Shown one piece after another: positions 4,838 through 21,473 of a stretch of DNA of 64,000 nt (its first letter is position 1; the number at the start of each line of letters is the position of its first letter). Made by a program: the position numbers and the translations under genes. The DNA is taken from contig JASHNZ010000105.1 in the NCBI GenBank assembly GCA_030041355.1, forward strand, positions 124,001 to 188,000, read 5' to 3'. The notes beneath the pieces were generated by a model. The model did not search any database. It was not told the origin of the DNA and was given only the letters and a program-made list of their open reading frames with translations. Source of the stretch: Nitrososphaerales archaeon. Lineage in GTDB: Archaea; Thermoproteota; Nitrososphaeria; Nitrososphaerales; CADDZS01.

Positions 4838-5590
4838 TTATAGCATAAAGATGCGTTTTCTCTCGCACTTTGAAACTTTACGTTCTCGTGATTTTCCCGT
4901 AGAGTCAATCAGACCTAATTTGTACGCCACTGTGGATGACATCACAGCTGTGTCCTCGTTCTCCCTGAGAGTATAAAGCGAATAGTAGAGCTCTTTGGTT
5001 TCATCCAGATATTCGCAATGATAGTAGATATTTTTCCTCCCACCACGAACGGTCGACATTACCATCAAGTTTAAAGCTCCTTTCATAGCTCTGATCTCGC
5101 GCACATAACTGATTGCGTTTTCTAGGCGTTCCTTCGTGGATTTTCCCTTTACTCTTTCCAAGAGAAACGTGAAAACCTCGCTGTCGTTAAGCTTTGAGAC
5201 ATCTTCCACTCTAGCCTTTTCCCCTAGTTTGTACTTGTCAATGTGGCCGTTGTGAGTAAGATACACAAGTTCGTCGCCAAAATGAGCTTCGAAAGGATGC
5301 GAATCGTACGGACCGCGAACCGGCTCTCCTTCTGCTCTGAGCCTCGCGTGAGAAATGCCTACGATTGGATCATCTTTCTCGAAAAATTGCGTGGCCTTCG
5401 GATCCTCAAAGATCGGGGTCGTAGTTCTGTAATACCTCTGGTCTTTTTCTGAATACCAAACTCCTCCCCACCCGCTGTCATGACTCCCTCTATTAGCTCT
5501 AAAATCATCGTCCTTTGCAGCTGATATCAGCGCGTCTTGAAGTTTCGATGCGAATTTTGCTGAACCTCGTACCGCAAACATTCTGCACAA
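4838..5590 (-). CDS. Class II glutamine amidotransferase (YafJ/Dug3-like)
   Basis: 250 residues. After Met removal the N-terminal Cys2 would be the nucleophile (MCRMFAVRG). HDSGWGGVWY and the SHARLRAEG strand are the glutamine-pocket motifs of Ntn-hydrolase type 2 amidotransferases. It is a stand-alone amidotransferase domain without a synthase domain, as in YafJ/Dug3 proteins, some of which act on gamma-glutamyl peptides. It lies 67 nt upstream of hemC on the same strand, but no link to haem synthesis is implied. Confidence 0.88.
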   Translation of the reverse strand: MCRMFAVRGSAKFASKLQDALISAAKDDDFRANRGSHDSGWGGVWYSEKDQRYYRTTTPIFEDPKATQFFEKDDPIVGISHARLRAEGEPVRGPYDSHPFEAHFGDELVYLTHNGHIDKYKLGEKARVEDVSKLNDSEVFTFLLERVKGKSTKERLENAISYVREIRAMKGALNLMVMSTVRGGRKNIYYHCEYLDETKELYYSLYTLRENEDTAVMSSTVAYKLGLIDSTGKSRERKVSKCERKRIFML

Positions 5591-5684
5591 TTGGACTTGC
5601 CTCTCTGATCTCCTAAAACTTCAGCCAATAATGCGTTCGCTCTGGCAGGATTGAACTCTGCCTTTCCTTGTTCTTTTTCAAATA

Positions 5685-6689
5685 TTAAACGCGTCGAAGG
5701 AAACTGTTTTGTAGAAATAATTGGTCCGGTTTGTACAGGTCAGTGCTGAGATATCTTAAACCAGCGTCCACCATGATCGTAACAACCGTTGCATTTGGTC
5801 CCAATTGCTTTGCGACGCGAAGAGCGGCAACAACATTTGCACCTGAGGATGTTCCTGCGAACAGACCTTCTTCTCTTGCAAGACGCCTTGCCATTGTCTT
5901 CGCCTCTTCAGTTGTTACCTTGATAATTTCACTCACTTCGCTTGGTTCCCATAACGGTGGAATGAAACCTATTCCTATCCCTTCTATCTTATGAGAGCCA
6001 GTAGGGCCCCCAGAAAGCACCGCGGATTCTGCAGGTTCGACCGCTGCCACGTGCACATCATGCTTGTGCTTTCGCAGAGCCCGTGTTGTTCCGTGTATTG
6101 AGTGCGCTGTTCCCACGGCTTGGACAAAGGCGTCGATGTTTCCGCCAGTCTGGTTCCAAATCTCTTCTCCCAACGGATAGTATCCGGTTATGGCGTCACG
6201 ATTGTTAAGCTGATCTGACCACCAATGATTAGGGCGTCCGCTGATAATTCTAGATCTCTCAATCATTTCCTTGATTAGTCTCTCCGTTATCATCTTATTG
6301 TCGCTCTTTACATCTTCAACGATTGCGCCAAATGCTTGCATGGTGAGACGCTTCTCATTGCTGAAGGCGTCAGAAAAGACGATGTGAAGGTTGTAACCTT
6401 TCGCGGCACAGACCAATGCAAGTGAAATTCCCGTAGTTCCCGCTGTGTATTCAACGACTGTGCTACCGGGCTTGATTTGGTGCTTCTTCTCTGCATTCTC
6501 TATGATAGCCTTCGCAACTCGATCTTTCATACTTCCTGTCGGGTTTACCCATTCGAGCTTCGCAAGAATTCTAGCTGAATCGGAAGGCACGACTTTTCTC
6601 AACTGAACCATAGGCGTGTTTCCGACCGATTCAATGACGTTTGCAGCTATTCCACGACCTGCCGCAGGTACAAATTGTGCTTCTTCCAC
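5685..6689 (-). CDS. Cysteine-synthase family PLP enzyme
   Basis: 334 residues, fold-type II PLP enzyme. The Schiff-base Lys is in NPTGSMKDRVA. The loop usually written TSGNTG is TAGTTG here, and GTSSGAN is the PLP-phosphate-binding C-terminal motif. VESVGNTPMVQL at the N-terminus is the typical O-acetylserine sulfhydrylase/cystathionine beta-synthase entry. Which acceptor it uses (O-acetylserine, O-phosphoserine or homocysteine) cannot be read from the sequence. A GGCAG-N9-CTGCC inverted repeat lies just 3' of the gene (5644-5662). Confidence 0.9.
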   Translation of the reverse strand: MEEAQFVPAAGRGIAANVIESVGNTPMVQLRKVVPSDSARILAKLEWVNPTGSMKDRVAKAIIENAEKKHQIKPGSTVVEYTAGTTGISLALVCAAKGYNLHIVFSDAFSNEKRLTMQAFGAIVEDVKSDNKMITERLIKEMIERSRIISGRPNHWWSDQLNNRDAITGYYPLGEEIWNQTGGNIDAFVQAVGTAHSIHGTTRALRKHKHDVHVAAVEPAESAVLSGGPTGSHKIEGIGIGFIPPLWEPSEVSEIIKVTTEEAKTMARRLAREEGLFAGTSSGANVVAALRVAKQLGPNATVVTIMVDAGLRYLSTDLYKPDQLFLQNSFLRRV

Positions 6690-6880
6690 TCAGTTTCCTC
6701 TCCACTAAGATTGGTTAGGATCGAAGAACCCTATTGTGTATTTCTCCAAGAACCTTTCTCAAAAGAAAGAATTTCGCCAGCTAATTTGTAATGAAACAAT
6801 TCCATGGAGCCAACAAAGCGCCAAGTCCCTCAATATTTTCTAATCAAATATGCTTATGAGCGAGATTTTGCTTTGCCCTG

Positions 6881-8248
6881 TTGAAAGCAAAGTTGTCAAT
6901 GAAAGAAGTTTTTGATTATATTGATTCTAACAAAAATAGAGCGATCGAGCTGCTTTCAAAGCTAGTGAGCCAGCCCAGCGTTGCGGCAACCGGTCAAGGA
7001 ATCAAAGAATGTTCAGAACTAGTCATGAAGCTTCTCGATGAACTTGGAGCCAACCCAAAACTGAATGATATCGGCGAGGGGAGCCCGGTAGTCTCAGGGG
7101 AAATAAAGAGCAAGAGAAATCCAGAGAAAACGATCCTCTTCTACAATCATTATGATGTTCAGCCTCCGGAACCTCTCGAACTCTGGGACAGCCCTCCTTT
7201 TACTCCCGCGATCAGAGATGGCAAAATGTATGGAAGAGGAGTGTCAGATGACAAGGGAGAACTAACCGGCAGAGTGAAACTCACTGAGGCTTTTCTTAAG
7301 ACTTGGAAAGATGTTCCTTGCAATTTCAAATTCCTCTTTGAAGGCGAGGAAGAAATAGGAAGCATACATTTGTCTCAATACCTGAAGAAGTATCCCGAAA
7401 TATTCAAGGCCGACGGAGTGGTCTGGGAGTTCGGCGGAGTCGATCCCAATGGTCGCCCGCAAGTAGTTTTAGGTGTTAAAGGAATTCTCTATGTTCAGCT
7501 GACTACAAATGTTGCCAAGAAGGATGTGCACTCCTCATTGGGTGCCATAGTTCAAAATCCAGCTTGGAGATTGGTGGGTGCTCTAAACACTTTGAAGAGT
7601 GGTGAGAAAATATTGATCCCGGGCTGGTACGATGACGTACGAAAATTCACGAAGCAAGAGCTCGAATTGATAAGACAAGCTCCTTATGACGCGAAAGCTA
7701 TCAAGGCGGATCTTGGGATCAGGAATTTTATCGCCAAGATGAGCATAGAGGAGGCAAAGAGAGCTCTTGTGGGTAAACCCACATGCACGATATGCGGTAT
7801 TTATTCCGGATATACAGGCCCAGGCTCAAAGACTGTATTGCCCAGTGAAGCATTTGCGAAAGTTGACTTTAGATTGGTGCCAGATCAAGATCCGGATGAT
7901 CTGGTCAGGAAGCTAAGAAAGTACTTAGTCACTCAAGGCTACTCTGACGTTAAGATCACGTACTCTGAAGGAGAGAGAGCAAAGAGAACCTCACCGAAAG
8001 AGCCCATCGCGATTGCAGCTAAGTTTGCAGCTGAACAGGTTTACAAAACAGCGTCTATTGTTCAAGTCTCCTCAGCAGGTACTGGTCCAATGTACCTCTT
8101 TAATGCCCCATGTGTAGCTATTGGCGGAGGGCATGCGTTTTCAAACGCGCATGCGCCCAATGAAAACAAACAGCTCGAATACTTGGTAAAGGGAATGAAA
8201 TGGGTCGCAAGTACCGTTAATAGATTCGCGGAGATGCGCATTTCTTGA
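6881..8248 (+). CDS. M20-family metallopeptidase (dipeptidase-like)
   Basis: 455 residues. Two-zinc exopeptidase with ligands in YNHYDVQPP (His, then Asp), GRGVSDDKGE (bridging Asp), FEGEEEIGS (catalytic Glu and ligand) and the C-terminal GGGHAFSNAHAPNE (His). The dimerisation domain sits between roughly residues 200 and 330. It likely trims peptides or acylated amino acids. The start may be TTG at 6881 or ATG at 6899. An AT-rich element near 6846-6858 lies about 26 nt before 6881, which would make the TTG a leaderless start. Confidence 0.92.
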   Translation: MKAKLSMKEVFDYIDSNKNRAIELLSKLVSQPSVAATGQGIKECSELVMKLLDELGANPKLNDIGEGSPVVSGEIKSKRNPEKTILFYNHYDVQPPEPLELWDSPPFTPAIRDGKMYGRGVSDDKGELTGRVKLTEAFLKTWKDVPCNFKFLFEGEEEIGSIHLSQYLKKYPEIFKADGVVWEFGGVDPNGRPQVVLGVKGILYVQLTTNVAKKDVHSSLGAIVQNPAWRLVGALNTLKSGEKILIPGWYDDVRKFTKQELELIRQAPYDAKAIKADLGIRNFIAKMSIEEAKRALVGKPTCTICGIYSGYTGPGSKTVLPSEAFAKVDFRLVPDQDPDDLVRKLRKYLVTQGYSDVKITYSEGERAKRTSPKEPIAIAAKFAAEQVYKTASIVQVSSAGTGPMYLFNAPCVAIGGGHAFSNAHAPNENKQLEYLVKGMKWVASTVNRFAEMRIS

Positions 8249-8300
8249 TAATAGGAAAAACCCTATAGGATGCCCCTTCTCATTTAACCGATAACGGTTC

Positions 8301-9311
8301 TCAAAATTCTGCCTTTCGGACCACCGCAGAATTTACACTGGAGATCTTAGCAACACCGCAGAGTATAGCTGCTCTCTCGAGCTCGGACTTCAATATAGTC
8401 ATCATTTGTGTGATGCCGTTCTCATGATCGCAGCTCAAAGCCCACAGAACTGGCCGACCTAGCAAACAAGCCCTTGCACCAAGAGCAAGCGCGATCAGAA
8501 TGTCTGTGCCGCGCCTGATTCCTCCGTCGAAGAACACCTCTGCGTGTCTCGTCTTTTTCTTTGCCTTCAGTCGCCCTACTATTTCGGGAAGCACCTCAAG
8601 AGTGGAAGACATATGGTCTAAGACCCTCGCCCCATGATTTGAAATTACGATCCCGTCTGCTCCGGATTCGATTGCGAGTTCTGCATCATCTGCGTTCATT
8701 ACTCCTTTGACAATCAAAGGAAGAGAGCTTAGTTGTCTTAGTTTCTTTATTTCTTTAGGAGTGACCTTCACAAACGAGTGGGAGGCGGTCTGAGCTGCGA
8801 TTTCGTTTCGTAGCTTTACGTTCAGTTCAGCGTCCACCGTGACGGCGAGTGCTTTGTACCCCCAGGACTCTGCCAGTTTTGCGTGTTTATAGCAGTCCAC
8901 TATGTTGTCGGTTTGCATGTAGATTTGCCAAATTAACGAACTTGACTTGTTTTTCACTAGTTGGGGAAGACGAGAAGGATCCAAGGGACGGATTACGGAG
9001 ACTTGCGAAACAAAGACAGGAACAGAAAAGGAATTTGTAACTTTGAGCAAATCTACGATGGCGTTGGGGTAAAGTGGCGAGCAATTGACCGGGGCGGGGA
9101 AAAAAGGTAACTCGCTTGAAAGGCGTTTATCAAAATAAGAAACATTCAGCTCAACACTTTCGATATTACGCAGCACTCTCCTCTGCACCAAGTAGCGAGA
9201 AAAGGCTGCAACATTTCTGTCAAGAGTCGATTGCGATTCGGTGCCGCTATAGATGTAGTTGATCTGCGACTGATCTAGGTGCTTTTTTGCTTCTTGAGCG
9301 AAATCTTCCAC
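8301..9311 (-). CDS. FMN-dependent alpha-hydroxy-acid oxidase family protein
   Basis: 336 residues, starts GTG. TIM-barrel flavoenzyme of the lactate/glycolate oxidase group. Motifs: NYIYSGTESQSTLDRN (N-terminal Tyr), LPLIVKGV (Lys contacting FMN N1), SNHGARVLD with the catalytic His, and DGGIRRGTD plus LLGRP for FMN phosphate. The canonical SNHGGRQLD is altered to SNHGARVLD, so the substrate may be atypical. It converges with the M20 gene and diverges from the zinc alcohol dehydrogenase. Confidence 0.88.
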   Translation of the reverse strand: MEDFAQEAKKHLDQSQINYIYSGTESQSTLDRNVAAFSRYLVQRRVLRNIESVELNVSYFDKRLSSELPFFPAPVNCSPLYPNAIVDLLKVTNSFSVPVFVSQVSVIRPLDPSRLPQLVKNKSSSLIWQIYMQTDNIVDCYKHAKLAESWGYKALAVTVDAELNVKLRNEIAAQTASHSFVKVTPKEIKKLRQLSSLPLIVKGVMNADDAELAIESGADGIVISNHGARVLDHMSSTLEVLPEIVGRLKAKKKTRHAEVFFDGGIRRGTDILIALALGARACLLGRPVLWALSCDHENGITQMMTILKSELERAAILCGVAKISSVNSAVVRKAEF

Positions 9312-9557
9312 TGACTCTGGAATGAAATTCGATATCAGCGCGGAACTCTTCTCATTACTTTCTGTCAGTATATTGATGTCGATCTCCTGCTAGTCCGATG
9401 CAGGTAATTTTTGGCTTTTCAGCCTTTTGAAAGGTAAATCTCAAACCAAATGCTTGAAAGTGCTCGAGACTACTTGCTTAGCATCCTAGAAATGTTCAAT
9501 TGCAGTGAACATTCCTAAAGGCAAAATGTTCCTTGAACACGCCCGGGTGCAAAGAAT

Positions 9558-10616
9558 TTGAAATCGATGAAACTCGTCGCCGAGGGGCAACCTCTCGAGC
9601 TTACGACTTCCTTGAAAACTCCTCTTATCGAAGACGGAGAAGCACTCGTCAAAGTGGATTATGCAGGAGTTTGTCACACCGATCTTCACTTCATTGAGGG
9701 CTCCTACAATCTAGGAAACGGTAGAAAGCTTGCCACTGGATTGCAACTTCCCGTAACGCTCGGGCACGAAATCGCCGGGAAAGTAGACGACATCTCTCCA
9801 TCTGCAAAAGTGAGAAAGGGCGACCGGGTAGTTGTCTATCCTTGGATCGGTTGCGGATCCTGTAGAAAGTGCCTAAATGGAATGGAGAACCTTTGCGAAG
9901 GCAGACCGAAATTTCTCGGCGTCTTTATGGATGGTGGATACTCTGATTATATTGTGGTTCCGAATGCGCGGTATCTCGTAAGCGCCGAGGGAATTGATCC
10001 TAAGCAAACTGCTCCGCTAGCTTGTTCGGGTTTGACAGCTTACAGTTCTGTCGTCAAGTGCGATCTGAAGCCCGAAGATTTGTTGCTGATAATAGGAGCT
10101 GGAGGTCTAGGAACCATGGCAACTCAGATAGCAAAGAAGGTAACGCGCGCACGGGTGGCTGTCATTGATGTTGACGAGGTCAAACTAGAGCTTGCGTTAG
10201 AGTTGGGCGCAGACAGTGTGTTCAACTCAACAAAACTTGAAGAAAGAGAGCTTGCCAAGGAGTTGCGAGCAATTGGCTCTGTTGGAAGAGGAGTTGATGG
10301 GGTTATTGACTTTGTTGGGACGCCATCGACAAGTTCGATTGGTTTCCGAGTGCTTGGAAAAGACTCTAGACTCGTTTTGGTCGGACTGGCGGGCGGACTA
10401 GCGGAGTTTCCTCTGCCGCTCTTTGCTCTTCGAGGCGTGCAGGTAATTGGAAATTTCACCGGTACTCTCAATGATCTAGTTGAATTGGTTGAGCTCGCAA
10501 AAAAGGGGCTCATCACTCCGGTTGTTTCAGGTGTTTATCCACTTGAAGACGCCAATTTGGCTTTGGATAAACTAAGACACGGAGAAGTAAAGGGACGAGT
10601 TATGCTAGAGCCATAG
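9558..10616 (+). CDS. Zinc-dependent alcohol dehydrogenase
   Basis: 352 residues. Catalytic-zinc ligands are in GVCHTDLH (Cys) and LGHEIAG (His-Glu); the structural zinc is bound by the four Cys of GCGSCRKCLNGMENLC. The Rossmann glycine loop is IIGAGGLGTMA, followed by VIDVDE with an acidic residue that favours NAD(H) over NADP(H). Same type as thermoacidophile ADHs. TTG at 9558 or ATG at 9567 could start it; the latter gives MKLVAEGQ, closer to homologues. Confidence 0.93.
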   Translation: MKSMKLVAEGQPLELTTSLKTPLIEDGEALVKVDYAGVCHTDLHFIEGSYNLGNGRKLATGLQLPVTLGHEIAGKVDDISPSAKVRKGDRVVVYPWIGCGSCRKCLNGMENLCEGRPKFLGVFMDGGYSDYIVVPNARYLVSAEGIDPKQTAPLACSGLTAYSSVVKCDLKPEDLLLIIGAGGLGTMATQIAKKVTRARVAVIDVDEVKLELALELGADSVFNSTKLEERELAKELRAIGSVGRGVDGVIDFVGTPSTSSIGFRVLGKDSRLVLVGLAGGLAEFPLPLFALRGVQVIGNFTGTLNDLVELVELAKKGLITPVVSGVYPLEDANLALDKLRHGEVKGRVMLEP

Positions 10617-10712
10617 AGGTATTAGTACATGAAAAATGCCATACAGGCCAATTTGTCTGGAACTATGCGTGTTTTGATACATGAAACTATACTAACACAC
10701 GCCGATGAGTAA

Positions 10713-10746
10713 AGTAATATATACTTCTCTTTCGAGAGAAAGTATA
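10713..10746 (+). promoter_or_regulatory. TATA box and dyad operator of the HTH gene
   Basis: An AT-rich TATA-like element at 10713-10722 runs into a near-perfect stem: TATACTT, CTCT, loop TTCG, AGAG, AA(A)GTATA (10720-10746). The dyad covers the space between the TATA box and the expected transcription start near 10743. It is well placed for a dimeric winged-helix repressor to block initiation, possibly autoregulation by the protein encoded at 10758. The same dyad could also form an RNA hairpin. Confidence 0.5.
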
Positions 10747-10757
10747 GGCGCATTTAC

Positions 10758-11288
10758 TTGCCTGATGATTTAGACCTCGACGATCTGCGTGAGGAAATCA
10801 AGTCACTTAAGTTTGAAATCCGAAAGCAGGTCGAACAAGCGATCCAAGACAAGAATTCGATCCGCGTGGATATCGACCGAGACGAGATTTCTCAAAGCGA
10901 GCCTTCATCCGTAGTGGTAAAGGATCTCGTAAAAATGATTCGCGACGGCGTCAAAACTAGTCTAGCGGAAAAAGGCGAACAAGCTGTTGACACCCTCGTG
11001 GAGGAAATGCCTGCTGATTCTGCTGCGGAGCTTCTGAAATCACTCGCGAATTCCGAACGATTGAAGATTGTAAAACTACTTTATTCTTCCAGCAGGACTT
11101 TCTCCGATCTCAAAACTCAGACGAGTCTTGAAGCTCCTTCTGTAAGTCATCATCTGAAGAGCCTGCTGAGAATGGGTTTGATTGTTCACGGAGACGAGGG
11201 CGGTTACCTTCTCACCAAAAGAGGGAGAATGCTTGTGCGTACGCTTGCGCTCATGAACGAAGCTTTGGGAGGCGAGGCGGTTGATTGA
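10758..11288 (+). CDS. Winged-helix (ArsR-like) transcription regulator
   Basis: 176 residues, starts TTG. The N-terminal ~80 residues are charged and helical (LREEIKSLKFEIRKQVEQAIQ) and likely form a dimerising coiled coil. Residues ~95-170 form a winged helix: LLKSLANSERLKIVKLLY, then recognition helix SVSHHLKSLLRMGLI and the wing GDEGGYLLTKRG. No metal-binding Cys set of classical ArsR sensors is seen. Overlaps the next gene by 8 nt, so it probably regulates the operon that includes the membrane protein. Confidence 0.85.
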   Translation: MPDDLDLDDLREEIKSLKFEIRKQVEQAIQDKNSIRVDIDRDEISQSEPSSVVVKDLVKMIRDGVKTSLAEKGEQAVDTLVEEMPADSAAELLKSLANSERLKIVKLLYSSSRTFSDLKTQTSLEAPSVSHHLKSLLRMGLIVHGDEGGYLLTKRGRMLVRTLALMNEALGGEAVD

Positions 11289-12651
11289 GTTAGGCACTAC
11301 TAGGGCCACGACGGTCGCGACCCGTCGGATAACTTCCGCACTCACGGGGTTGGTAGTCATTATCGTGTTCATTTGGTTGCTTGGGGCGGTGTTGCATATT
11401 TCGCCATATTCGATTTACCTCTTGCTAACCGCAATAGGAATGCTGTTTTTGGCAAGAATGCTAAAAATAAAACTCAGCAATGGAGCAGTTAGGGCTGTAT
11501 CCAGTCTATTTTGGAATTTGTTCGTTTTCAATGTGGAAACGATCATTCTGATCTATTTTCTCGGCTGGATTGCTTCATTGGAGAAAATGAGTTTCCCAGG
11601 TCAGTTTTATACACTGATACCTGATTTTGTTCTCGCAGCTTTCGTTGCGGGAGCTATTGCGTTTGTCACCCACCAAGCAGCTCCGCCGCTGGAACCAGTA
11701 CGCTCGATTGGAAAACCCCTGCTTGTAAGTTCAGGGACTAACCTTCGATTAGACAGTGCGCAACTTTCGACAAATACCGATGGCATTGCGTTGCCCATGA
11801 GCCTCTCAAAGAGGACATCAGGATACGTGCTTTATTCAGATGTTGAGGCAATGCTCGATACACCAATGGGCACAAAGGAGCTAAAGCTCAGAGCACCAGT
11901 CGTCATTTCAGGCACTCCTTTCAAAGCGAAGAAGGCGTCCGACGATGATGTCAAAAAACTAACTGGAAAAACCTCCAAAGATCTCATTGAGGATGCGAAA
12001 ACCAATATCGGTTCTGTTTCAGCAAATTTTGGACAGGAAACCAGCGTAGACCTTCCGTTAATTCATGTAAAGGAAGACATGGCTGGGTCTGACGTGGAGG
12101 TAGGTCCGATAAGTGTGCGAAGCGACAACACGGGAGATCACGTCAATATTGGGCCTTTCCACATCGACCACGAAGAGCACCGTCATGGGCATTCTAAACC
12201 TGGGGAACAACAAAATCGCTGGGGTTGGTTCACTTATGCAAAGACTGGTTCGTTCATTACTTCCAAGAATGGAGTGATCAATGCAAAGTGGAATGGCAGT
12301 TCCCTAAGTCTCAAGGGCGCTTATATGCATCTTGCAGTAGGAGGCGACAGTTTTGAATACGATCCACACGAAATCAAAACAACCTCGCCGCTCCACACCC
12401 TTCGGGTAACACAAAGCGGAATCTCGCTTGAAACTTCGAGGTTTGCCGTGAATGTGTATTCGAGTAGAGTGCTAGTCAGGACTGCAGATGGCAAGACCAA
12501 GAGTACAGAATCCGAGCAACTTGCGAGCGATTTGAAAGAGGCTCTGACCACACTGGCGATGAAACAAGTGAAAGATTTGATCTCTGGCGAGCCTATTGAC
12601 ATAGAGGAGATGCTCCGCACGACCGAAGGAGTCCTGACACAGTATGCCTGA
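11281..12651 (+). CDS. Membrane protein with C-terminal beta-rich domain, unknown function
   Basis: 456 residues, starts TTG inside the end of the regulator gene. Four hydrophobic segments fall in the first ~130 residues (ITSALTGLVVIIVFIWLLG, IYLLLTAIGMLFLARML, ETIILIYFLGWIASL, FVLAAFVAGAIAFVTH). The remaining ~320 residues are soluble and strand-rich, with alternating short hydrophobic strands and a His-rich patch (HIDHEEHRHGHS). The regulator-plus-membrane-protein pair resembles envelope-stress sensors that use a beta-helix domain, but I do not recognise the family. Its last codons (EGVLTQYA) are echoed at the end of the following fragment. Confidence 0.75.
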   Translation: MIELGTTRATTVATRRITSALTGLVVIIVFIWLLGAVLHISPYSIYLLLTAIGMLFLARMLKIKLSNGAVRAVSSLFWNLFVFNVETIILIYFLGWIASLEKMSFPGQFYTLIPDFVLAAFVAGAIAFVTHQAAPPLEPVRSIGKPLLVSSGTNLRLDSAQLSTNTDGIALPMSLSKRTSGYVLYSDVEAMLDTPMGTKELKLRAPVVISGTPFKAKKASDDDVKKLTGKTSKDLIEDAKTNIGSVSANFGQETSVDLPLIHVKEDMAGSDVEVGPISVRSDNTGDHVNIGPFHIDHEEHRHGHSKPGEQQNRWGWFTYAKTGSFITSKNGVINAKWNGSSLSLKGAYMHLAVGGDSFEYDPHEIKTTSPLHTLRVTQSGISLETSRFAVNVYSSRVLVRTADGKTKSTESEQLASDLKEALTTLAMKQVKDLISGEPIDIEEMLRTTEGVLTQYA

Positions 12652-12690
12652 TCAAACAAACACACAAGAAATGGAACCGAAAGCAAGAAA

Positions 12691-12903
12691 ATGAAGTTCT
12701 TTATTGCGAAACTGAACAATTCAGACCTCGTCTTTCTGAAGGAGCTTCTTGTAGCCGGGAAGTTGAAGCCGCTCATAGATAGACGTTACACAATCAACGA
12801 AGTTCCTGAGGCGGTATGGTATCTAGAGGAAAAACATGCCCGCGGAAAAGTCGTCATCGCCCTGTGGCCAAAGAATGAGGGAGTCTTGACTCGATATGCA
12901 TGA
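12691..12903 (+). pseudogene. C-terminal fragment of an MDR/quinone oxidoreductase
   Basis: 70 codons matching only the last ~60 residues of zinc-type/quinone-oxidoreductase MDR proteins: FLKELLVAGKLKPLIDRRY, then INEVPEAVWYLEEKHARGKVVIAL. The catalytic and Rossmann domains are missing upstream, so this is a remnant, not an enzyme. The final residues NEGVLTRYA are foreign to the family and mirror the end of the preceding gene. The 27-bp DNA at the two ends (12625-12651 and 12877-12903) is similar, so the fragment sits between imperfect direct repeats. Confidence 0.7.
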
Positions 12904-13174
12904 GGAGGAAATGGATCGACCAGATCTCATCAGCGTCTACGATCACGATATTCGACCAACTGAGGGCGTTGAGCTCTCGCCAGGAAAGGAGGAACTGCTT
13001 ACTTTAGTGGGGCGCGATGGAGTGGGCAACACGACTTTTGTCATGCTGTTGAAGACTCAACTTGCGCCCAATTCCAACGGCGTCAAAATCGCAAGCATTG
13101 AAGTGGTGAAGGAACCAAAGCATTCAAAATCTGAGGCAGTTGTTGCAATCGTGTCTGACAACAAAGAGGTGTAA
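12896..13174 (+). pseudogene. Degenerate ABCE1/RLI-like nucleotide-binding-domain fragment
   Basis: 92 codons. The middle resembles the start of the second ATPase domain of archaeal ABCE1 (ribosome-recycling factor): a GKEELLTLVGRDGVGNTTF segment where functional homologues have GPNGIGKTTF. The Walker A Lys is Asn here and the following Q-loop, signature and Walker B are missing. It therefore cannot hydrolyse ATP as it stands. Overlaps the MDR remnant by 8 nt. Likely a decaying duplicate of a chromosomal RLI gene; the assignment rests on a ~50-residue match by eye. Confidence 0.5.
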
Positions 13175-13229
13175 TGAGTGAGTTGCGAAACTCCAATCTA
13201 ATACCACATAAAACGGGAAGAATTTCGGA

Positions 13230-13547
13230 TCAAGCGACGTGTTCTTTCTCGGTAGTTGAAATTACTTCATGGATCGTCAGAAAGCTTTTTCCGGCGAAGA
13301 TCTCATCCGAAGAACGGGCATTCGCGTGAGCCTTCGTGAATTCCTTGCTTTTGGTCCATTTCTCGAAACTTTCATTTGAATCCCAGTACGTCCGTACAAT
13401 ATAATATCCTCCCTTGATCGGTCTCAGAACCTCGTTTCTTACAAACCCGGGGGAATTCTGCACATACTTAGTGCCTTCAGAAAACATTTTTTCAAATCGA
13501 TCCTTAAATTCCTCTTTGACTGGTATGTGATTTTCAACCACGATCAT
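13230..13547 (-). CDS. ABM-fold monooxygenase, IsdG/HmoA-like haem-degrading candidate
   Basis: 105 residues, the usual size of a ferredoxin-like ABM domain. Asn6, Trp64 and His74 line up with the IsdG-family catalytic triad Asn7-Trp67-His77, including the 10-residue Trp-to-His spacing. Family members open haem without haem oxygenase, to staphylobilin or similar products. That role is an inference; other ABM proteins oxidise quinoid compounds. Starts ATG; upstream is the SRPBCC gene on the same strand 44 nt away. Confidence 0.75.
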   Translation of the reverse strand: MIVVENHIPVKEEFKDRFEKMFSEGTKYVQNSPGFVRNEVLRPIKGGYYIVRTYWDSNESFEKWTKSKEFTKAHANARSSDEIFAGKSFLTIHEVISTTEKEHVA

Positions 13548-13591
13548 GGGCCACTTTGCTGTTCTCGAGCTTAAAGGCCTTTAATGATCTA

Positions 13592-14086
13592 TTAAGGGGC
13601 TCCTTGGATTGCTTTGCTTCTGAGCTCTTCCAGCCAGAGTTGATGATATCTGCTCATGTTGTTGGGTCTCACTGCATTGCTCAGCCTTGCCACTGCCCCT
13701 TTTTGATTTTCTTCAGTGATTACATGAGACCCCGTAGGAGTCTTTTGGATTAGAAAGGCGTGGTACGCTCGGACTCCGGTTCCACTTGCGCTCCAGGCGA
13801 TTCTCTCTGGAGGTTCGTATTCTTGGACTTTGGAGCTCAGGTTAACACCAAAGGTCCTCCACGTGAATTTCGAGTTTGCTTTTAGGTCAGTGCTCCCGCC
13901 CTCTATCTTAACATTAGAAGAATTACTGTACCAGGTTGGCCATAGACTCGCCTTCACAAGCCAAGCCCAAATGGTCTCTTGAGGGGCCTCGATATCCAAC
14001 TCATTGTGAACATGAACTTGTGTCTTGCTAGGTGCAAAATCTTCAGGCCACTTGATAGAATCCGCGTTCTGATTGGAGAAAGACAT
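13592..14086 (-). CDS. SRPBCC (START/polyketide-cyclase fold) protein
   Basis: 164 residues. The opening HVHNELDIEAPQETIWAWLVKASLWPTWY is the classic start of a SRPBCC ligand-binding domain, with FTWRTFGVNLSSKVQEYEPPERIAW as its central strands and HQLWLEELRSKA as the long C-terminal helix. It binds a hydrophobic ligand or lipid of unknown identity. The TATA region directly upstream is a perfect dyad, and the ATG lies about 25 nt from its centre, so the mRNA is probably leaderless. Confidence 0.85.
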   Translation of the reverse strand: MSFSNQNADSIKWPEDFAPSKTQVHVHNELDIEAPQETIWAWLVKASLWPTWYSNSSNVKIEGGSTDLKANSKFTWRTFGVNLSSKVQEYEPPERIAWSASGTGVRAYHAFLIQKTPTGSHVITEENQKGAVARLSNAVRPNNMSRYHQLWLEELRSKAIQGAP

Positions 14087-14103
14087 GAACTTGGAAAGTC
14101 ACT

Positions 14104-14118
14104 AGTCTATTATAGACT
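14104..14118 (-). promoter_or_regulatory. Palindromic TATA region of the SRPBCC gene
   Basis: AGTCTAT-T-ATAGACT is a perfect 7-bp inverted repeat around one base. On the minus strand it contains a TATA-like core whose centre is ~25 nt from the ATG at 14086. A dimeric regulator bound here would compete with TBP. The remaining intergenic DNA up to the TATA box at 14454 shows no coding frame that I trust. Confidence 0.4.
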
Positions 14119-14451
14119 TTGCTAATTCTTCTATGATTCCGAGTGCATCTCCAGTTGAAGGCAAATTAGGGCGGTTGAGTCGGGAAAGATCCGAAAGAAG
14201 CTGGAAAAAGAAATTTTGTAAACAATTCATCTTCATTATTTCAATCGACTTGTTCAGAAGCGGTGTGTGCTTGTGCGCTTTTTCCTAGGCACCCATCGCT
14301 GACCGGCTAGCGCGGTACACAGTATCGAATCCCGATGCACTTCTAAGCTATTGTTGCTTACTAGCACATGCTGATAAGCCTGGACAATATAATTTACCTG
14401 CTGAATTGTGTAGCGCGAATTTCGATATTTCGAGCTGGTCTTAATCTAGAC

Positions 14452-14463
14452 CACCTTAAATAG
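14452..14463 (+). promoter_or_regulatory. TATA box of the Pls-like operon
   Basis: CTTAAATA within an AT-rich patch (14454-14461). The expected transcription start is near 14484, only a few bases before the TTG start codon at 14493, giving a very short leader. I see no Shine-Dalgarno sequence. The preceding 14119-14451 stretch holds no recognisable gene. Confidence 0.45.
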
Positions 14464-14492
14464 AATAGAAGAAGCAGTTTACGTCCTCAGTT

Positions 14493-17400
14493 TTGGCTCT
14501 ACAATTCCTTCTCCCTACAAAACCACATCACTTCTTTGAGCTTTCTTGTGAACGCAATCCTACCAATATTGCAATTGTTTACGATAACCAGCTTATTACT
14601 TATGCTGAATTGAATGAACGAGCAAACAAGCTCGCCCAATTTCTAGCATGTCTCGGGATCGGTCGGGGCTCGCGAGTCGGGATTCTGCTGGATAGGTCAG
14701 TCAATATCTACGTTGTGATACTTGCGATCCCTAAAGTTGGCGCGACCTGGGTTCCACTTGATCCTTCTTGGCCTCGCGAACGTCTTTCCTTCATTTCAAA
14801 GGACGCCGAATTGTCAGCTATAGTGACAACATCTTCTTTAGTCGATCTTCTCTCTCCACCTTCAACTTCCGGCTATCTGGTTATTCCTATTGACAAACTG
14901 GCTGACGACATAGCTAGGCAACAAAACCTTAGTCCGAGCCCAGAAAATGAAGGCGTCCGGGACGTTGGCGCTTCCATTTCTCACATCGTATACACGTCTG
15001 GAACTTCCGGCCGCCCAAAAGGCGTGGCCATCAGTAACCAAAACATCTGCAATTTTCTTTCCGTGGTTGCAGGGATTTATGATTACAAATGTACTGATAG
15101 AGTCTATCAGGGAATGACTATTGCTTTTGACTTTTCGATCGAAGAGATTTGGGTGACTTTTGCGGCGGGAGCGACTTTGGTTCCAGGTTCGAGTGGCGCT
15201 AAGTACGGTCCCGACCTCGCGAGGTTTCTCGTTGAAAACAAAGTTACAATCCTCGCGTGCGTTCCCACTTTGCTCGCGACCATCGATACTGATGTGCCCT
15301 CTCTCAGGCTACTCCTTGTAGGAGGTGAACCCTGCCCACAAGAATTGGTCGATCGCTGGGCGCGCGATGGTCGTAGGCGTATGCTCAATACGTATGGCCC
15401 CACTGAGACGACTGTCACAGCATTAGTTGCAGAACTCAAATCAGGTCATCCAGTCACCATCGGCAAGCCTTTGCCAAGCTACAAGGTCTATCTCTTAGAT
15501 CCTGAAATGAGACTCGTCCAATCCGGAGACATTGGAGAGATTTGTATCGGCGGACCCAGCGTTGCCCTAGGGTACCTGAATAATCCCGAGCTCACTTCAG
15601 AAAAGTTCGTTTTCGATCCTTTTACTAATCTAGTCGATGAGTCTCGTCTCTATAAAACAGGGGACTTAGGGCGACTCAGTTCCAATGGGGAAATTGAGTA
15701 TCTCGGGCGGATTGATTCTCAATTAAAAGTTCGGGGCTATCGAGTCGAGCCCGCCGAGATTGAGTCCATTATTCTTCGAGAGCCCTCAGTAAAGAGTGCA
15801 GCCGTTACAACTTGGAGACCTTCGGAAAATGACGCCGCAGAGCTTGTTGCCTACATCGTCCTCAAACAAAAGAAAGACGAGGCCACTTTCGATATATCTG
15901 TCCTACTGGAAAAGTTACGCGCGCAGCTCCCACAATACATGGTTCCGAGTTTTGTGGAATTAATCGATAGCTTGCCCGTTCAAGCAAGCGGCAAAGTGGA
16001 TCGCTCTAGGCTGGATCCTCCAAGGGGACCAAGAAGGAGCACCCGCGGTTTGCCCTCGAGTTTCTCTCCACCAGAGACTGAGCTCGAGAGGATCATATCA
16101 AAGACTTGGGAACATTTCCTACGCATGGAGAATGTTTCGGTCGAAGACGACTTCTTCCTCGACCTGGGCGGACACTCTCTTCTGGCTGCGAGAGTAGTTT
16201 CTGAACTTCGTAAGCAAAACGGACTGGAAAATCTCAGTATCAGCGATCTGTACGAGCATCCAACTATTAGAGCACTTGCGTCTTCTGTTGATAATTATCC
16301 GGTTTCAAAGCCGTCTATATCCAAGTTCAATAAAGATAGTCCTTCCCCGCAACTGAATGAAGAAAAAGATCAGGGGATTCGCGACGAAAAAGCTCAGCAA
16401 TCAGATAGGAAATTCCGGGGATGCGGCGTGGCCCAAATGGTTTCTATTTACCTATACCTAATGTTGTTCGCTATCCCGTTTCTTCCTCTTCAATGGACTG
16501 GAATTGGGTTTATTTCGAGTCTCTCACTCGTCAACGACTTCACTAACCCGCCTTTGCTCGCAGTCGGGCTAATTTCTTACGTCATTTTCGTCACTCTGGT
16601 AGCGTTAGCACTTCCGATTGCATTAAAGTGGATCCTCCTTGGCAGAACAAAACCCGGCCGACATCCTCTTTGGGGTTCATATTTCCTTAGATGGTGGATT
16701 GTAAACAAAACGCAATCTCTTGCAGACTTTCCTCTAAGACTGATCTCAGGAACTCCGATGATGCCAATCTACTTCAAATTGATGGGAGCAAAAATAGGGC
16801 AAAATTGCGAAATCCAGAACACAGACATTTTTAATGCAGACCTTTTGGAAATAGGCGAGAATACATGCATTGGAGTGGGGACCCAGATCTACTGCTATAA
16901 AATCCAAGATAAGACACTGAAGCTGGATAGAGTTAAAATCGGATCGAGATGCTATGTAGGCACAAATTCAGTGATACTTCCCGGTGGCATAATGGGAGAT
17001 AATTCAAGACTCGGTGACCAGTCGCTTCTTTGCACCGAGGAGAAAATCCCGGAAGGAGAAAGCTGGAGCGGCTCTCCATCTCGACGCGATCTGTCACCAG
17101 ACACTCTTATCGACACACTTGCGTCACAAGAACCAGAATCCTCTTCGAATGCCCGGAAGCTGGCTCTGATTTCACTTCACGTGATCGGAATATTCGCAAT
17201 CTTGGTCGCTGAAGCGGTTGCTTTCCTGCCGGGAATCCTAATCATGCAGTATCTGTATTCGAGATTCGGTGGCTTTTGGTTTCTTCTCTCTGCACCGCTA
17301 GGCGGGGCTCTATTCGTCCTAACTTGTTGCACATTGATCTCTGGAATGAAGTACCTTTTGATGCCGTCGGTAAAGCCTGGCGTGTATTCAGTTCATTCCC

Positions 17401-18566
17401 TATTTGGTTTTCGCAAGTGGATGATGGATGCTCTAATGGATCTTAGCTTGTTTATGAATCAGGCAATGTATGCGACCTTGTATATTGTCCCATGGCTCAG
17501 ATCATTGGGGGCAAAGATCGAAAAACGCTCGGAAGTCTCTACCATTTCACACATAACGCCTAATCTCCTAACAGTCGGACCTGAAAGTTTCTTTGCCGAT
17601 GGGGCTTGTATTGGCGCGACACCAGTTTATAATGGATATTTGCTTGTGGCTCCGACGCAAGTTGGGCGTAGGTCTTTCATTGGAAACTCTTCCTGCCTTA
17701 CATCGAACACCTCTGTGGCCGATAACTGTCTCGTCGGAGTTTTATCAATCAACCCGAGGACTCAAATGAAAGAAGGGACATCTTGGCTTGGTTCACCACC
17801 AATCAATCTTCCTCGGCGCGAGGCTAGTCCTCAATTTCCAGAAACACTCACTTTCATGCCTTCAAAGAAACTTGTGAGACTGAGGCTGTTAAGTGAATTC
17901 TTCAGAACGATTGTACCCGCTACAATATGGTTGGCTGCAACTGCTTTCCTTATCGTTTCAATGATCCGTCTTTATCAGCTCTCATCTTATTGGACAGCGC
18001 TCCTCGCTTTCCCTGCGCTCTACCTATTTTCAGCAATCCTTGCTACTCTCTTTGTTATCGCGATCAAGAAAATTCTCGTGCAGAAGTACAAACCGCTGGT
18101 TCGTCCACTTTGGAGCCCTTGGGTACGCAAGACCGAGCTTGTCACCGGCCTCTACGAAAATGTGTCAGGACCGATGCTTCTTGATTTCCTTCTTGGAACT
18201 CCGTTTGCCGCTCTTGTTCTCCGTTTGTTTGGTACCAAGATCGGAAAGCGCGTCTACATTGACACTGATGACATAACAGAGTTTGACTTGGTTTCTGTGG
18301 GTGATGAAGCTGAAATCGGTCCGGATGTTTCGCTTCAGACTCATTTGTTCGAGGACAGGGTCATGAAAACGTCCAATGTCAACATAGGAAGTCGCTGTTC
18401 TATTGGTCCGAGATCTATTGTCCTTTATGATTCCAAGATGGAAGATAACTCTGAGCTTGACGGCCTTTCACTCTTGATGAAAGGCGAGACCCTGAGGGCA
18501 GGATTGCGGTGGCAGGGCTCTCCCGCAAGAAGTAAACCTATAGAGAACGTGGTTACGGTTCCATGA
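14493..18566 (+). CDS. Pls-type membrane NRPS: A-T plus six TM segments and three acyltransferase-like domains
   Basis: 1357 residues. Order: adenylation domain ~1-515 (A3 YTSGTSGRPKG at 167, NTYGPTET at 299, YKTGDLGR, KVRGYRVEPAEIE, A10 Lys501 in QASGKVDR), then a carrier domain with phosphopantetheine Ser562 in LGGHSLLAA. Two TM helices follow (~650-708), a hexapeptide-like domain (~765-850), two TM (~889-960), a second (~1005-1090), two TM (~1135-1190) and a third (~1244-1345). There is no condensation or thioesterase domain. This is the layout of bacterial epsilon-poly-lysine synthetase (Pls), which polymerises one amino acid. By-eye specificity residues are D213 F214 E217 A255 L275 G277 T300 V308 T309 K501; Glu217 suits a basic substrate such as Lys or Orn. 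Overlaps the PPTase gene by 4 nt. Confidence 0.88.
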   Translation: MALQFLLPTKPHHFFELSCERNPTNIAIVYDNQLITYAELNERANKLAQFLACLGIGRGSRVGILLDRSVNIYVVILAIPKVGATWVPLDPSWPRERLSFISKDAELSAIVTTSSLVDLLSPPSTSGYLVIPIDKLADDIARQQNLSPSPENEGVRDVGASISHIVYTSGTSGRPKGVAISNQNICNFLSVVAGIYDYKCTDRVYQGMTIAFDFSIEEIWVTFAAGATLVPGSSGAKYGPDLARFLVENKVTILACVPTLLATIDTDVPSLRLLLVGGEPCPQELVDRWARDGRRRMLNTYGPTETTVTALVAELKSGHPVTIGKPLPSYKVYLLDPEMRLVQSGDIGEICIGGPSVALGYLNNPELTSEKFVFDPFTNLVDESRLYKTGDLGRLSSNGEIEYLGRIDSQLKVRGYRVEPAEIESIILREPSVKSAAVTTWRPSENDAAELVAYIVLKQKKDEATFDISVLLEKLRAQLPQYMVPSFVELIDSLPVQASGKVDRSRLDPPRGPRRSTRGLPSSFSPPETELERIISKTWEHFLRMENVSVEDDFFLDLGGHSLLAARVVSELRKQNGLENLSISDLYEHPTIRALASSVDNYPVSKPSISKFNKDSPSPQLNEEKDQGIRDEKAQQSDRKFRGCGVAQMVSIYLYLMLFAIPFLPLQWTGIGFISSLSLVNDFTNPPLLAVGLISYVIFVTLVALALPIALKWILLGRTKPGRHPLWGSYFLRWWIVNKTQSLADFPLRLISGTPMMPIYFKLMGAKIGQNCEIQNTDIFNADLLEIGENTCIGVGTQIYCYKIQDKTLKLDRVKIGSRCYVGTNSVILPGGIMGDNSRLGDQSLLCTEEKIPEGESWSGSPSRRDLSPDTLIDTLASQEPESSSNARKLALISLHVIGIFAILVAEAVAFLPGILIMQYLYSRFGGFWFLLSAPLGGALFVLTCCTLISGMKYLLMPSVKPGVYSVHSLFGFRKWMMDALMDLSLFMNQAMYATLYIVPWLRSLGAKIEKRSEVSTISHITPNLLTVGPESFFADGACIGATPVYNGYLLVAPTQVGRRSFIGNSSCLTSNTSVADNCLVGVLSINPRTQMKEGTSWLGSPPINLPRREASPQFPETLTFMPSKKLVRLRLLSEFFRTIVPATIWLAATAFLIVSMIRLYQLSSYWTALLAFPALYLFSAILATLFVIAIKKILVQKYKPLVRPLWSPWVRKTELVTGLYENVSGPMLLDFLLGTPFAALVLRLFGTKIGKRVYIDTDDITEFDLVSVGDEAEIGPDVSLQTHLFEDRVMKTSNVNIGSRCSIGPRSIVLYDSKMEDNSELDGLSLLMKGETLRAGLRWQGSPARSKPIENVVTVP

Positions 18567-19369
18567 GCTACAAAGCTGTCTCGGATGCAGCGATTGACAT
18601 CTGGATCGTAAGAGAACGCGAGGAACAGCTATCAGGAAAGGCAATGCACACTTATCACTCCGACTCTATTGCCCTGAAGGATAATTCCCTTTTTGATTTG
18701 TGGACGACTCATGCAGAGAGAGAGGAGAGTTTGAAGTACGGGCTTAACGAAGAAGGACGAAAGTCCTTTCTTTATCGAAGAGCAATCCGACGCTTGATCC
18801 TGCGGAAGTATACGAAGCGGCAACCAAGAGAACTCGTAATCGAAAGCGACTCGTTTTCCGGCAAGCCCATGTTGGGCGGGCAGATGTCCGACGTGTGCTT
18901 TAGCTCTTCAAGCTCGGGGGGCTTGATGGCTGTCGCTGTAGGGCATGAGATGCGCCTGGGCGTTGATATCGAAAAGGAAACTGATGATCTTTCTGGGAAG
19001 GAAAGTCTGCAGCTGGCGCGCAATTTCTTCAGCACGCGGGAGTATAACCAGATTTTGAGAACAGGTCCTCCTGATTCGCGACGAGAGCTATTTTTCAAAC
19101 TCTGGGTTTTGAAAGAAGCTTGGGCGAAAGCAAGGGGTCAGGGGCTCGGCCAACCCCTCGATTCGTTTTCGATCTTGCTCCAAGACTCGCCGAAATTGCT
19201 TATGGATGAAAGAGAAAAAGATACTCAGTCGGAAAGTGGCTGGCAGCTAGCAACGTTCAATCCATCCGCCGGATACGTTGGTGCTATTGCCTATGAGTCA
19301 CGCATTCCCGTAAATCAATTAAATATTAATCATGTTACAAGAGAGGACTTCCTAAATAACATGGCCTAG
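18563..19369 (+). CDS. Sfp-type 4'-phosphopantetheinyl transferase
   Basis: 268 residues. It transfers phosphopantetheine from CoA to a carrier-domain Ser. The Mg-binding LGVDIE motif (Asp135, Glu137) and WVLKEAWAKARG (Trp181, Lys184, Glu185) are the P-type signatures, and the RRAIRRLILRKY helix in the N-half is also typical of Sfp proteins. Its ATG overlaps the stop of the Pls-like gene (ATGA), so the two are translationally coupled, and Ser562 of that protein is the obvious target. Phosphopantetheinyl carrier proteins are rare in archaea, so a dedicated partner makes sense. Confidence 0.93.
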   Translation: MSYKAVSDAAIDIWIVREREEQLSGKAMHTYHSDSIALKDNSLFDLWTTHAEREESLKYGLNEEGRKSFLYRRAIRRLILRKYTKRQPRELVIESDSFSGKPMLGGQMSDVCFSSSSSGGLMAVAVGHEMRLGVDIEKETDDLSGKESLQLARNFFSTREYNQILRTGPPDSRRELFFKLWVLKEAWAKARGQGLGQPLDSFSILLQDSPKLLMDEREKDTQSESGWQLATFNPSAGYVGAIAYESRIPVNQLNINHVTREDFLNNMA

Positions 19370-20102: not shown

Positions 20103-21473
20103 TTATTCTTCAAGCGAAAAGAGACTCTTCAATAAAGAGGCGTACTCGCGTGACTTTCTGCTCTCTCCATTCCTTGCGACTTTTTTCAAATTGGTCGTGG
20201 GCTCGTGCAAGAAGCGCCTGATTATCCTCTCGGACATTCTCTGCACGACTAATTTCTCTTCCGGTGTAGGGTCTTCTAACCTGGAAATTGCGTTCTGGAG
20301 CTCCTCGGCCCTTATGGAATCAGCTTTTTTTCGCAGCTGAGCCATGATTGGGGTAACCTCGGAGCTTTCTTTGAGCCAGAACATGAATTCGTTGGTCCTT
20401 GCCTCTATGGACCTGTGAATGGAATTTAGCTCTTTCCTCCTCTCTGGAGATTTCTCCGCTTCAAGCTCGGGATTTGTCACGATTTCTTTTAGGTCATCTA
20501 GATTGATCAGCTTTACGTTAGGATATATTCTTGCGATTTTGGGATCCACATTTCTTGGGACCGAAATATCCAAAATGAGCAATTGTCTGTTTTCCTTCGA
20601 GAAGGGCTCTATCTCGCGAGGCGTGATCACGTAATCACTGGCAGTCGTTCCTGTCATGATTACGTCGATGTTTTCTTCGAGGATCGTTTTTCCAATATCC
20701 GAGACGGGAATTATTTTGTCAGCATGGATCGCTTCGGAAGAATTGCGTCTTGAGGCCACGATCACTTTGCCGGGGGAGAGATTGTCCAAGGACGCCACGG
20801 CTAACTTGATCATTTTTCCGGATCCCACAAGCAAAATGTTAGGCCCTGGTCGATCTCGAAAGTGATCTGAGATTAATTCTATTACGGATAAACTCACAGA
20901 GTTTTTGAAACCATTCGTGAATATGGGATAGGCTTCTCTGATCTCTTTTCCTGTGGTATAAGCCTTGGAGAATAATTTAGCCAGTATGGGACCGGATAAT
21001 TTTTTCTCGCGTGCAATCGCTGATGCTAGCTTTACCTGCAGCAGGATCTGCGCTTCTCCCACGATTAATGAATCTAGACCGGACGCCACGTCAAAAATGT
21101 GCTTAATGGCGCGCTCGTCAGCGTACTCGTAGGTGTGATAGTCCACTTTTTGATTTTGATCTATTGATTCTTCGAGGAATAAATTCGTGAATAAACTGCG
21201 AGTCGCTGCCAAATCTTCTGAAGCGAAATAGACTTCGACCCTGTTGCACGTGGATAATAGTACAGATTCAATCTCGCCTGAAGATCTGTTTTCCTTTTGC
21301 AGTTTCTCCAGGGCCTCAACTGTGACGAGTTTTCCTAATTTCTCTCTAGCTTCAATCGGAGCTGTCTTGAAATTGACTCCGATCACCCCGACTCGTGTTG
21401 CTGGAACCGACACTAGCTCTTCGTAGAGCTCTGCGTCCGAAATTTCAAGGTGATCTACAAGAGATCTGCTCAA
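20103..21473 (-). CDS. hemA: Glutamyl-tRNA reductase
   Basis: 456 residues, TTG start. Reduces glutamyl-tRNA(Glu) to glutamate-1-semialdehyde, the first committed step of C5 tetrapyrrole synthesis. Catalytic Cys76 lies in LLSTCNRVEVYF. The substrate-domain SLIVGEAQILLQVK motif, the NADPH-domain ILLVGSGKMIKLA loop and the dimerisation-helix end (EEKLVVQRMSERIIRRFLHEP) are all present, so the protein is complete. Separated from hemCD by 16 kb, but on the same strand. Confidence 0.95.
   Translation of the reverse strand: MSRSLVDHLEISDAELYEELVSVPATRVGVIGVNFKTAPIEAREKLGKLVTVEALEKLQKENRSSGEIESVLLSTCNRVEVYFASEDLAATRSLFTNLFLEESIDQNQKVDYHTYEYADERAIKHIFDVASGLDSLIVGEAQILLQVKLASAIAREKKLSGPILAKLFSKAYTTGKEIREAYPIFTNGFKNSVSLSVIELISDHFRDRPGPNILLVGSGKMIKLAVASLDNLSPGKVIVASRRNSSEAIHADKIIPVSDIGKTILEENIDVIMTGTTASDYVITPREIEPFSKENRQLLILDISVPRNVDPKIARIYPNVKLINLDDLKEIVTNPELEAEKSPERRKELNSIHRSIEARTNEFMFWLKESSEVTPIMAQLRKKADSIRAEELQNAISRLEDPTPEEKLVVQRMSERIIRRFLHEPTTNLKKVARNGESRKSREYASLLKSLFSLEE

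Follow-up and report, generated by a model that had tools for sequence, protein, structure and literature searches.

A candidate Pls/PosA-family synthetase for a short diamino acid polymer, with an overlapping phosphopantetheinyl transferase gene, in a Nitrososphaerales archaeon

Single-module synthetases of homo-poly(amino acids) are an established enzyme family in bacteria and fungi (PMC10522769). Among the described members, the Streptomyces epsilon-poly-lysine synthetase Pls (A domain, PDB 7WEW) consists of an adenylation (A) domain, a peptidyl carrier domain (PCP) and six transmembrane (TM) segments with three tandem lobes, and has neither a condensation (C) nor a thioesterase (TE) domain; the Acinetobacter enzyme PosA, which makes delta-poly-L-ornithine (PDB 8G95-8G98), has the same architecture, and actinobacterial synthetases (PDAPs, PldA, PddA) make beta-poly-L-Dap or gamma-poly-Dab, i.e., polymers of 2,3-diaminopropionate (Dap) or 2,4-diaminobutyrate (Dab). 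In PosA, the Asp at position 1 and the Glu at position 3 of the pocket code are the two essential pocket residues, the latter reportedly being conserved throughout these synthetases, while position 2 has been tied to the chain length of the substrate, Ala going with Lys, Met with Orn, and Phe with Dap or Dab; the M218A exchange made the enzyme almost ten times as efficient with Lys (PMC10522769). Archaeal homologues with other codes and no assigned substrate were listed in 2023 (PMC10522769).

Here we describe a locus on the forward strand of a window of 64,000 nucleotides (positions 124,001 to 188,000 of contig JASHNZ010000105.1) from a Nitrososphaerales archaeon. The best explanation of its large open reading frame (ORF), to which we assign a probability of about 0.7 on the basis of its sequence, is an archaeal Pls/PosA-family cationic synthetase for a short diamino acid polymer. 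The initial annotation knew of no characterised archaeal example, which stands in the literature searched, since no experimentally tested archaeal member was found there (most subscription journals lay outside the scope of the search), although bioinformatic work had already pointed out archaeal homologues. Those homologues (CHPA) share the family and the domain of life with the window synthetase, but their reported code, DLEDIGTV(T/V/I)K, differs from it (PMC10522769); the present enzyme adds a new lineage and a further code to the list.

Domain organisation of the synthetase and its partner gene

The synthetase ORF (14493..18566) starts with TTG, encodes 1357 amino acids and has no internal stop. 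Its adenylation core occupies residues 15-362 (14535..15578; PF00501 AMP-binding, 271 bits) and the adenylation C-terminal subdomain, with the A10 lysine K501, residues 422-501 (15756..15995; PF13193 AMP-binding_C, 42 bits), and the following A-domain core motifs are present: YTSGT (167), NTYGPTE (299), YKTGD (387) and SGKVDR. The carrier domain follows at residues 536-597 (16098..16283; PF00550 PP-binding, 41.8 bits), with the phosphopantetheine site Ser562 (16176-16178) in the motif FLDLGGHSL; this serine is invariant. Scans with Pfam and NCBIfam found no condensation or thioesterase domain, leaving a single A-PCP module, as expected for the family. Finally, the profile of the Pls/PosA terminal domain, TIGR02353, matched residues 661-1345 with 605.5 bits, i.e., 182 bits above the curated cut-off of 423.1. 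Domain matches of this strength exclude chance, and they bear out the Pls-like layout, the adenylation domain, the carrier serine and the absence of a condensation domain that had been read from the sequence at the outset; a broken A-domain core or a C-terminus unlike Pls, which the initial annotation had named as speaking against its proposal, was not observed. The gene is also under purifying selection, since its identities with the homologue of the related genome JOPF051 at the three codon positions are 0.73/0.81/0.42.

The terminal domain was found to be built of three repeated units, each a pair of membrane segments followed by a left-handed beta-helix (hexapeptide-like) lobe. The membrane pairs, recognised by hydropathy and as helices in the structural model, lie at residues 646-664 and 688-706 (16428..16610), 900-918 and 931-949 (17190..17339), and 1140-1158 and 1173-1191 (17910..18065), and the same six segments in three pairs were recovered on the family-average hydropathy. 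Lobe 1 spans approximately residues 766-870 (16788..17102) and is indicated by PF00132 and LbH matches, AlphaFold2 and Foldseek, while lobes 2 (approximately residues 1007-1107; 17511..17813) and 3 (approximately residues 1248-1348; 18234..18536) were placed by AlphaFold2. The AlphaFold2 model of the C-terminus, calculated from a 46-row alignment, had a pLDDT of 91.7 and a pTM of 0.92, confirming the alternation of TM pairs and three hexapeptide-like domains first proposed from the sequence, and it agrees with the published model of the PosA terminal domain, which likewise shows three beta-helices (PMC10522769). Individual lobes matched hexapeptide acyltransferases in Foldseek; no solved structure spanning the whole terminal domain was found by sequence or fold search. 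Lobe 3 contains the motif LQTHLFEDR (18333..18359), of which QTHLFEDR is invariant in the 46-row alignment and is a putative active-site segment.

The membrane-embedded nature of this domain and its resemblance to acyltransferases acting on sugars or sugar nucleotides would also be compatible with a different product of the activated diamino acid, namely a lipid- or glycan-attached oligomer or a short peptide instead of a free homopolymer. This is unlikely, however, since the characterised members make free isopeptide homopolymers (PMC10522769, PMC8117764) and the terminal domain of the window enzyme is of full length and conserved, including QTHLFEDR.

The second gene (18563..19369) overlaps the stop codon of the synthetase by 4 bp and encodes a 4'-phosphopantetheinyl transferase (PPTase) of 268 amino acids, which matched the ACPS profile PF01648 with 59 bits and Sfp (1QR0) with an E value of 3e-17. 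The motifs GVDIE and KEAWAKA, the ACPS fold, and a length inside the group II range (about 230-270 amino acids) identify it as Sfp-type, as had been noted from the sequence. Its description as 'dedicated' to the synthetase was upheld insofar as the gene pair is common to two genera and Sfp-size genes are few among the relatives: PF01648 matched in 11 of 101 relatives, and Sfp-size open frames were present in the window genome and JOPF051, all remaining matches being AcpS-sized except for a 268-amino-acid frame of ambiguous type beside an acyl carrier protein (ACP) gene in the genome G001. About 18 distinct homologous loci also have a PPTase gene next to the synthetase or close by; it is upstream in Myxococcota and Desulfobulbaceae, and it overlaps downstream in several bacteria, in JOPF051 and in Ca. 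Nitrosotalea t3.48. The association is further favoured by a Holophagaceae bin (L081, 6640-11688), in which a Pls/PosA synthetase is naturally fused to a C-terminal PPTase domain.

The PPTase is not, however, part of the only carrier system of the genome, nor its only carrier activator, since a second pair of carrier and PPTase, an ACP with an AcpS, is encoded on contig C4. There (C4:20654-23653), a stand-alone ACP, an AcpS-type PPTase and a hexapeptide acyltransferase are clustered; the same trio was seen in the genome G003, and PPTase and hexapeptide genes lie a few kb apart in six order-level relatives. The trio may represent an archaeal ACP-dependent acylation system.

Pocket code, domain trees and precursor supply

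The pocket code was read from a 73-row alignment as D213, F214, E217, A255, L275, G277, T300, V308, T309 and K501, i.e., DFEALGTVTK, with a steady offset of 4-5 from the PosA pocket residues D217, M218, E221, H260, N280, T304, V312 and S313; this reproduced the code that had been read by hand in the initial annotation. The family Asp and Glu are present at positions 1 (D213) and 3 (E217), in keeping with the earlier suggestion of a basic amino acid, and PosA and the window enzyme both have a hydroxyl residue (Ser or Thr) at position 9. At position 2, the Phe of the poly-Dap/poly-Dab subgroup (F214) replaces Met218 of PosA, and is predicted to shorten the substrate; the same position is Ala in Streptomyces Pls, from which the window enzyme also differs in its archaeal host and overlapping PPTase. 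The exact ten-letter code was found in no other homologue of the 73-row sample. The JOPF051 enzyme, whose flanking genes are different, has DFDGIGTVTK, with Asp for Glu at position 3, so the two archaeal enzymes may not use the same substrate. Neither of these two codes occurs in any bacterial homologue in the sample. The exchange of Glu for Asp at position 3 was also seen in two other homologues (L060 and L039) besides JOPF051 (L056).

The A domain and the C-terminal domain of 73 full-length homologues, chosen by similarity to the archaeal C-terminus, were used to build independent trees. A class of 35 of the 73 rows with Phe or Tyr in the code, the window enzyme included, formed an exact bipartition in the A-domain tree with a support of 100, and the same 35 rows formed an exact bipartition in the C-terminal-domain tree with a support of 99; the phylogeny of the A domain had been proposed as a check at the outset. 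The window enzyme shares this Phe-code class in both trees with the actinobacterial synthetases of beta-poly-L-Dap and gamma-poly-Dab. Within the class, the placement of the archaeal pair (window and JOPF051) is supported by only 52 and 14. The bacterial enzymes closest to that of the window (45-47% identity) come from Myxococcota, Chloroflexota, Nitrospirota, Desulfobulbaceae and Nostocales, and their codes begin with DFEC, DFDC or DFEY.

Because of the Phe at position 2 and the position in the Phe class of both domain trees, the substrate is likely to be a short diamino acid rather than lysine, which refines the earlier suggestion, and the product, as judged from the code and the trees, is most likely an isopeptide polymer of Dap or Dab, in either the L or the D form. 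Between Dap and Dab, we lean slightly to Dap, without claiming it. A synthetase of epsilon-poly-lysine, or of an ornithine polymer, would share the Pls architecture and the acidic Glu217 in the pocket, and two other Nitrososphaerales copies, those of Ca. Nitrosotalea t3.48 and the genome G329, do carry the code DLESIGTVIK and are placed by the C-terminal tree in its Lys-type part. Such a long-chain substrate is nonetheless very unlikely for the window enzyme, as its position 2 is neither Ala (Lys) nor Met (Orn), M218A in PosA shows the influence of this residue on chain length (PMC10522769), and both trees place it outside the DAESIGTVIK and DMEHNGTVTK groups. Lysine, in particular, was rejected because of the code and because neither tree puts the enzyme among the Lys-code rows; the Orn-code rows are likewise outside the class of the window enzyme.

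Genes for precursor supply, either dat and ask or a cysteine synthase together with an OCD protein, were also sought. No dat gene scored over the cut-off in 12 genomes (the best match in the window genome had 298 against 401.6 bits), which gives no sign of Dab being supplied by this route. No SbnA over the cut-off was found in the window genome, which has one OCD-family gene, on contig C62. The stretch between hemC and hemA that holds the synthetase pair contains, on the reverse strand, a gene for a cysteine-synthase-type PLP enzyme (5685..6689; 305 bits to TIGR01136 and 218 bits to the SbnA profile TIGR03945, both below the cut-off), which is a possible, unproven source of Dap. A copy of 83% identity is present in JOPF051, and copies of 37-39% were found in the regions checked of three synthetase-less genomes; however, a survey of 101 genomes also retrieved copies of 74% and 68% identity from two that have no synthetase, and for this reason it was rejected as a specific Dap supply and is retained only as a lead. 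No precursor gene adjoins the window synthetase, neither dat nor ask being found among its neighbours, and the Dap genes of S. albulus are likewise unlinked to pdaps (PMC4668381).

A different arrangement was seen in homologues with the code DFE[CA]LS[AV]V[TS]K, all from Actinomycetota, as eight of the nine have a class-III aminotransferase (Dab-transaminase fold) near or beside the synthetase, the ninth, from Catenulispora, having little downstream sequence. The eight include the locus of S. celluloflavus, a species that produces poly-L-Dab (PMC8117764), and the aminotransferase fits Dab. The window synthetase is about 43% identical to the S. celluloflavus locus and differs from this aminotransferase-linked Streptomyces group in having Ala at position 4 and a GTVT instead of an LSAVT ending; homologues of its own, GTVTK type have no class-III aminotransferase near or beside the synthetase.

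Genomic setting and other archaeal copies

The 105 contigs of the genome add up to 2.74 Mb, and the one that contains the window is 201 kb long. The synthetase pair is flanked by hemC (3821-4771, reverse strand; TIGR00212, 306 bits), which is 69% and 63% identical to its counterparts in the same-genus genomes G003 and G002, respectively, and by hemA (20103-21473, reverse strand), for which the values are 85% and 71%; the contig is archaeal because of the adjoining HemA of such identity. No GC step was seen within the window. The two hem genes are nearly adjacent in G001, G002 and G006, are 8.7 kb apart in G003, and 15.3 kb apart in the window (4838-19369), and none of the genes of the window's block had a match in the G003 stretch. 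Since the spacing is variable among relatives, the synthetase pair resides in a variable region flanked by genes of the lineage. We do not regard the 15.3-kb gap as a single transferred island, however, as some of its genes, those for the ArsR-like regulator and the 456-amino-acid membrane protein, co-occur in G004, which has no synthetase.

The archaeal origin assumed from the start was confirmed by these flanking genes and by the same gene pair in JOPF051. Bacterial contamination or a chimeric assembly, which would accord with the bacterial identity of the nearest non-archaeal relatives, the lack of the synthetase in most relatives and the GC-shifted stretches that carry some other Nitrososphaeria-bin copies, is hardly credible for a gene located well inside a contig between the hemC and hemA of the lineage, without a GC step, and shared as a pair with a second member of the family. 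A bacterium was probably the source of the gene pair, which two genera of a single Nitrososphaerales family then retained.

A full terminal domain was found among the 101 relatives only in the window genome and in JOPF051 (G008; JASHPO010000166). JOPF051 is the sole further relative at family level to carry the synthetase, and it has the same overlapping pair (synthetase 64% and PPTase 44% identical). A class-level sample of 400 genomes added four copies, in Ca. Nitrosotalea t3.48 (G188), G329, G234 and G359, and a phylum-level sample of 398 genomes added none. The first two of these (L084/L040 and L041), the Lys-type ones, each have an overlapping PPTase-like ORF. The copies of the order-level relatives G234 (L039) and G359 (L042) are very divergent, with 26% identity in the terminal domain, and that of G234 (10160-14349 of its locus) is split across two frames at a sharp GC step from 0.31 to 0.55; milder GC steps occur at other Nitrososphaeria copies. 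In view of the Lys-type position of the first two and the divergence of the other two, either Nitrososphaeria took up such genes on several occasions or some of these bins are contaminated; the GC steps are compatible with both. A further homologue, in the Methanothrix sp. fen_7 bin (L087), has the Phe code DFEGEGTITK and an overlapping PPTase and groups with Sulfuriferula; it could be a contaminant.

Proposed mechanism and significance

For the preferred reading, a short diamino acid polymer, the following mechanism is proposed. The PPTase would load Ser562, and the A domain would activate a short alpha,omega-diamino acid (Dap or Dab) as the adenylate. The membrane domain would then receive the aminoacyl-thioester and repeatedly join the carboxyl group to the side-chain amine, forming isopeptide bonds with neither a C nor a TE domain taking part. 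The resulting short polycation would reside at the membrane or outside it and probably serve as an antimicrobial or surface polymer; by analogy, modification or export at the membrane, as envisaged in the initial annotation, may be involved. It is also conceivable, as a tentative extension with the odds against it, that the two archaeal enzymes make up a separate branch of the short-diamino-acid class and produce a polymer of a diamino acid new to these enzymes, serving as an antimicrobial or a cationic surface layer; if so, archaea would have a non-ribosomal polymer served by an activating enzyme of its own.

For the family, the pocket code and the polymerising membrane domain segregate together, which supports a usable rule for predicting the products of the many uncharacterised members. 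For the archaea, the locus provides, from uncultivated soil archaea, a complete and well-placed example of a carrier-based homopolymer synthetase that comes with a PPTase of its own, and this two-gene set offers a direct way to find out if cationic poly(diamino acids) are made by archaea.
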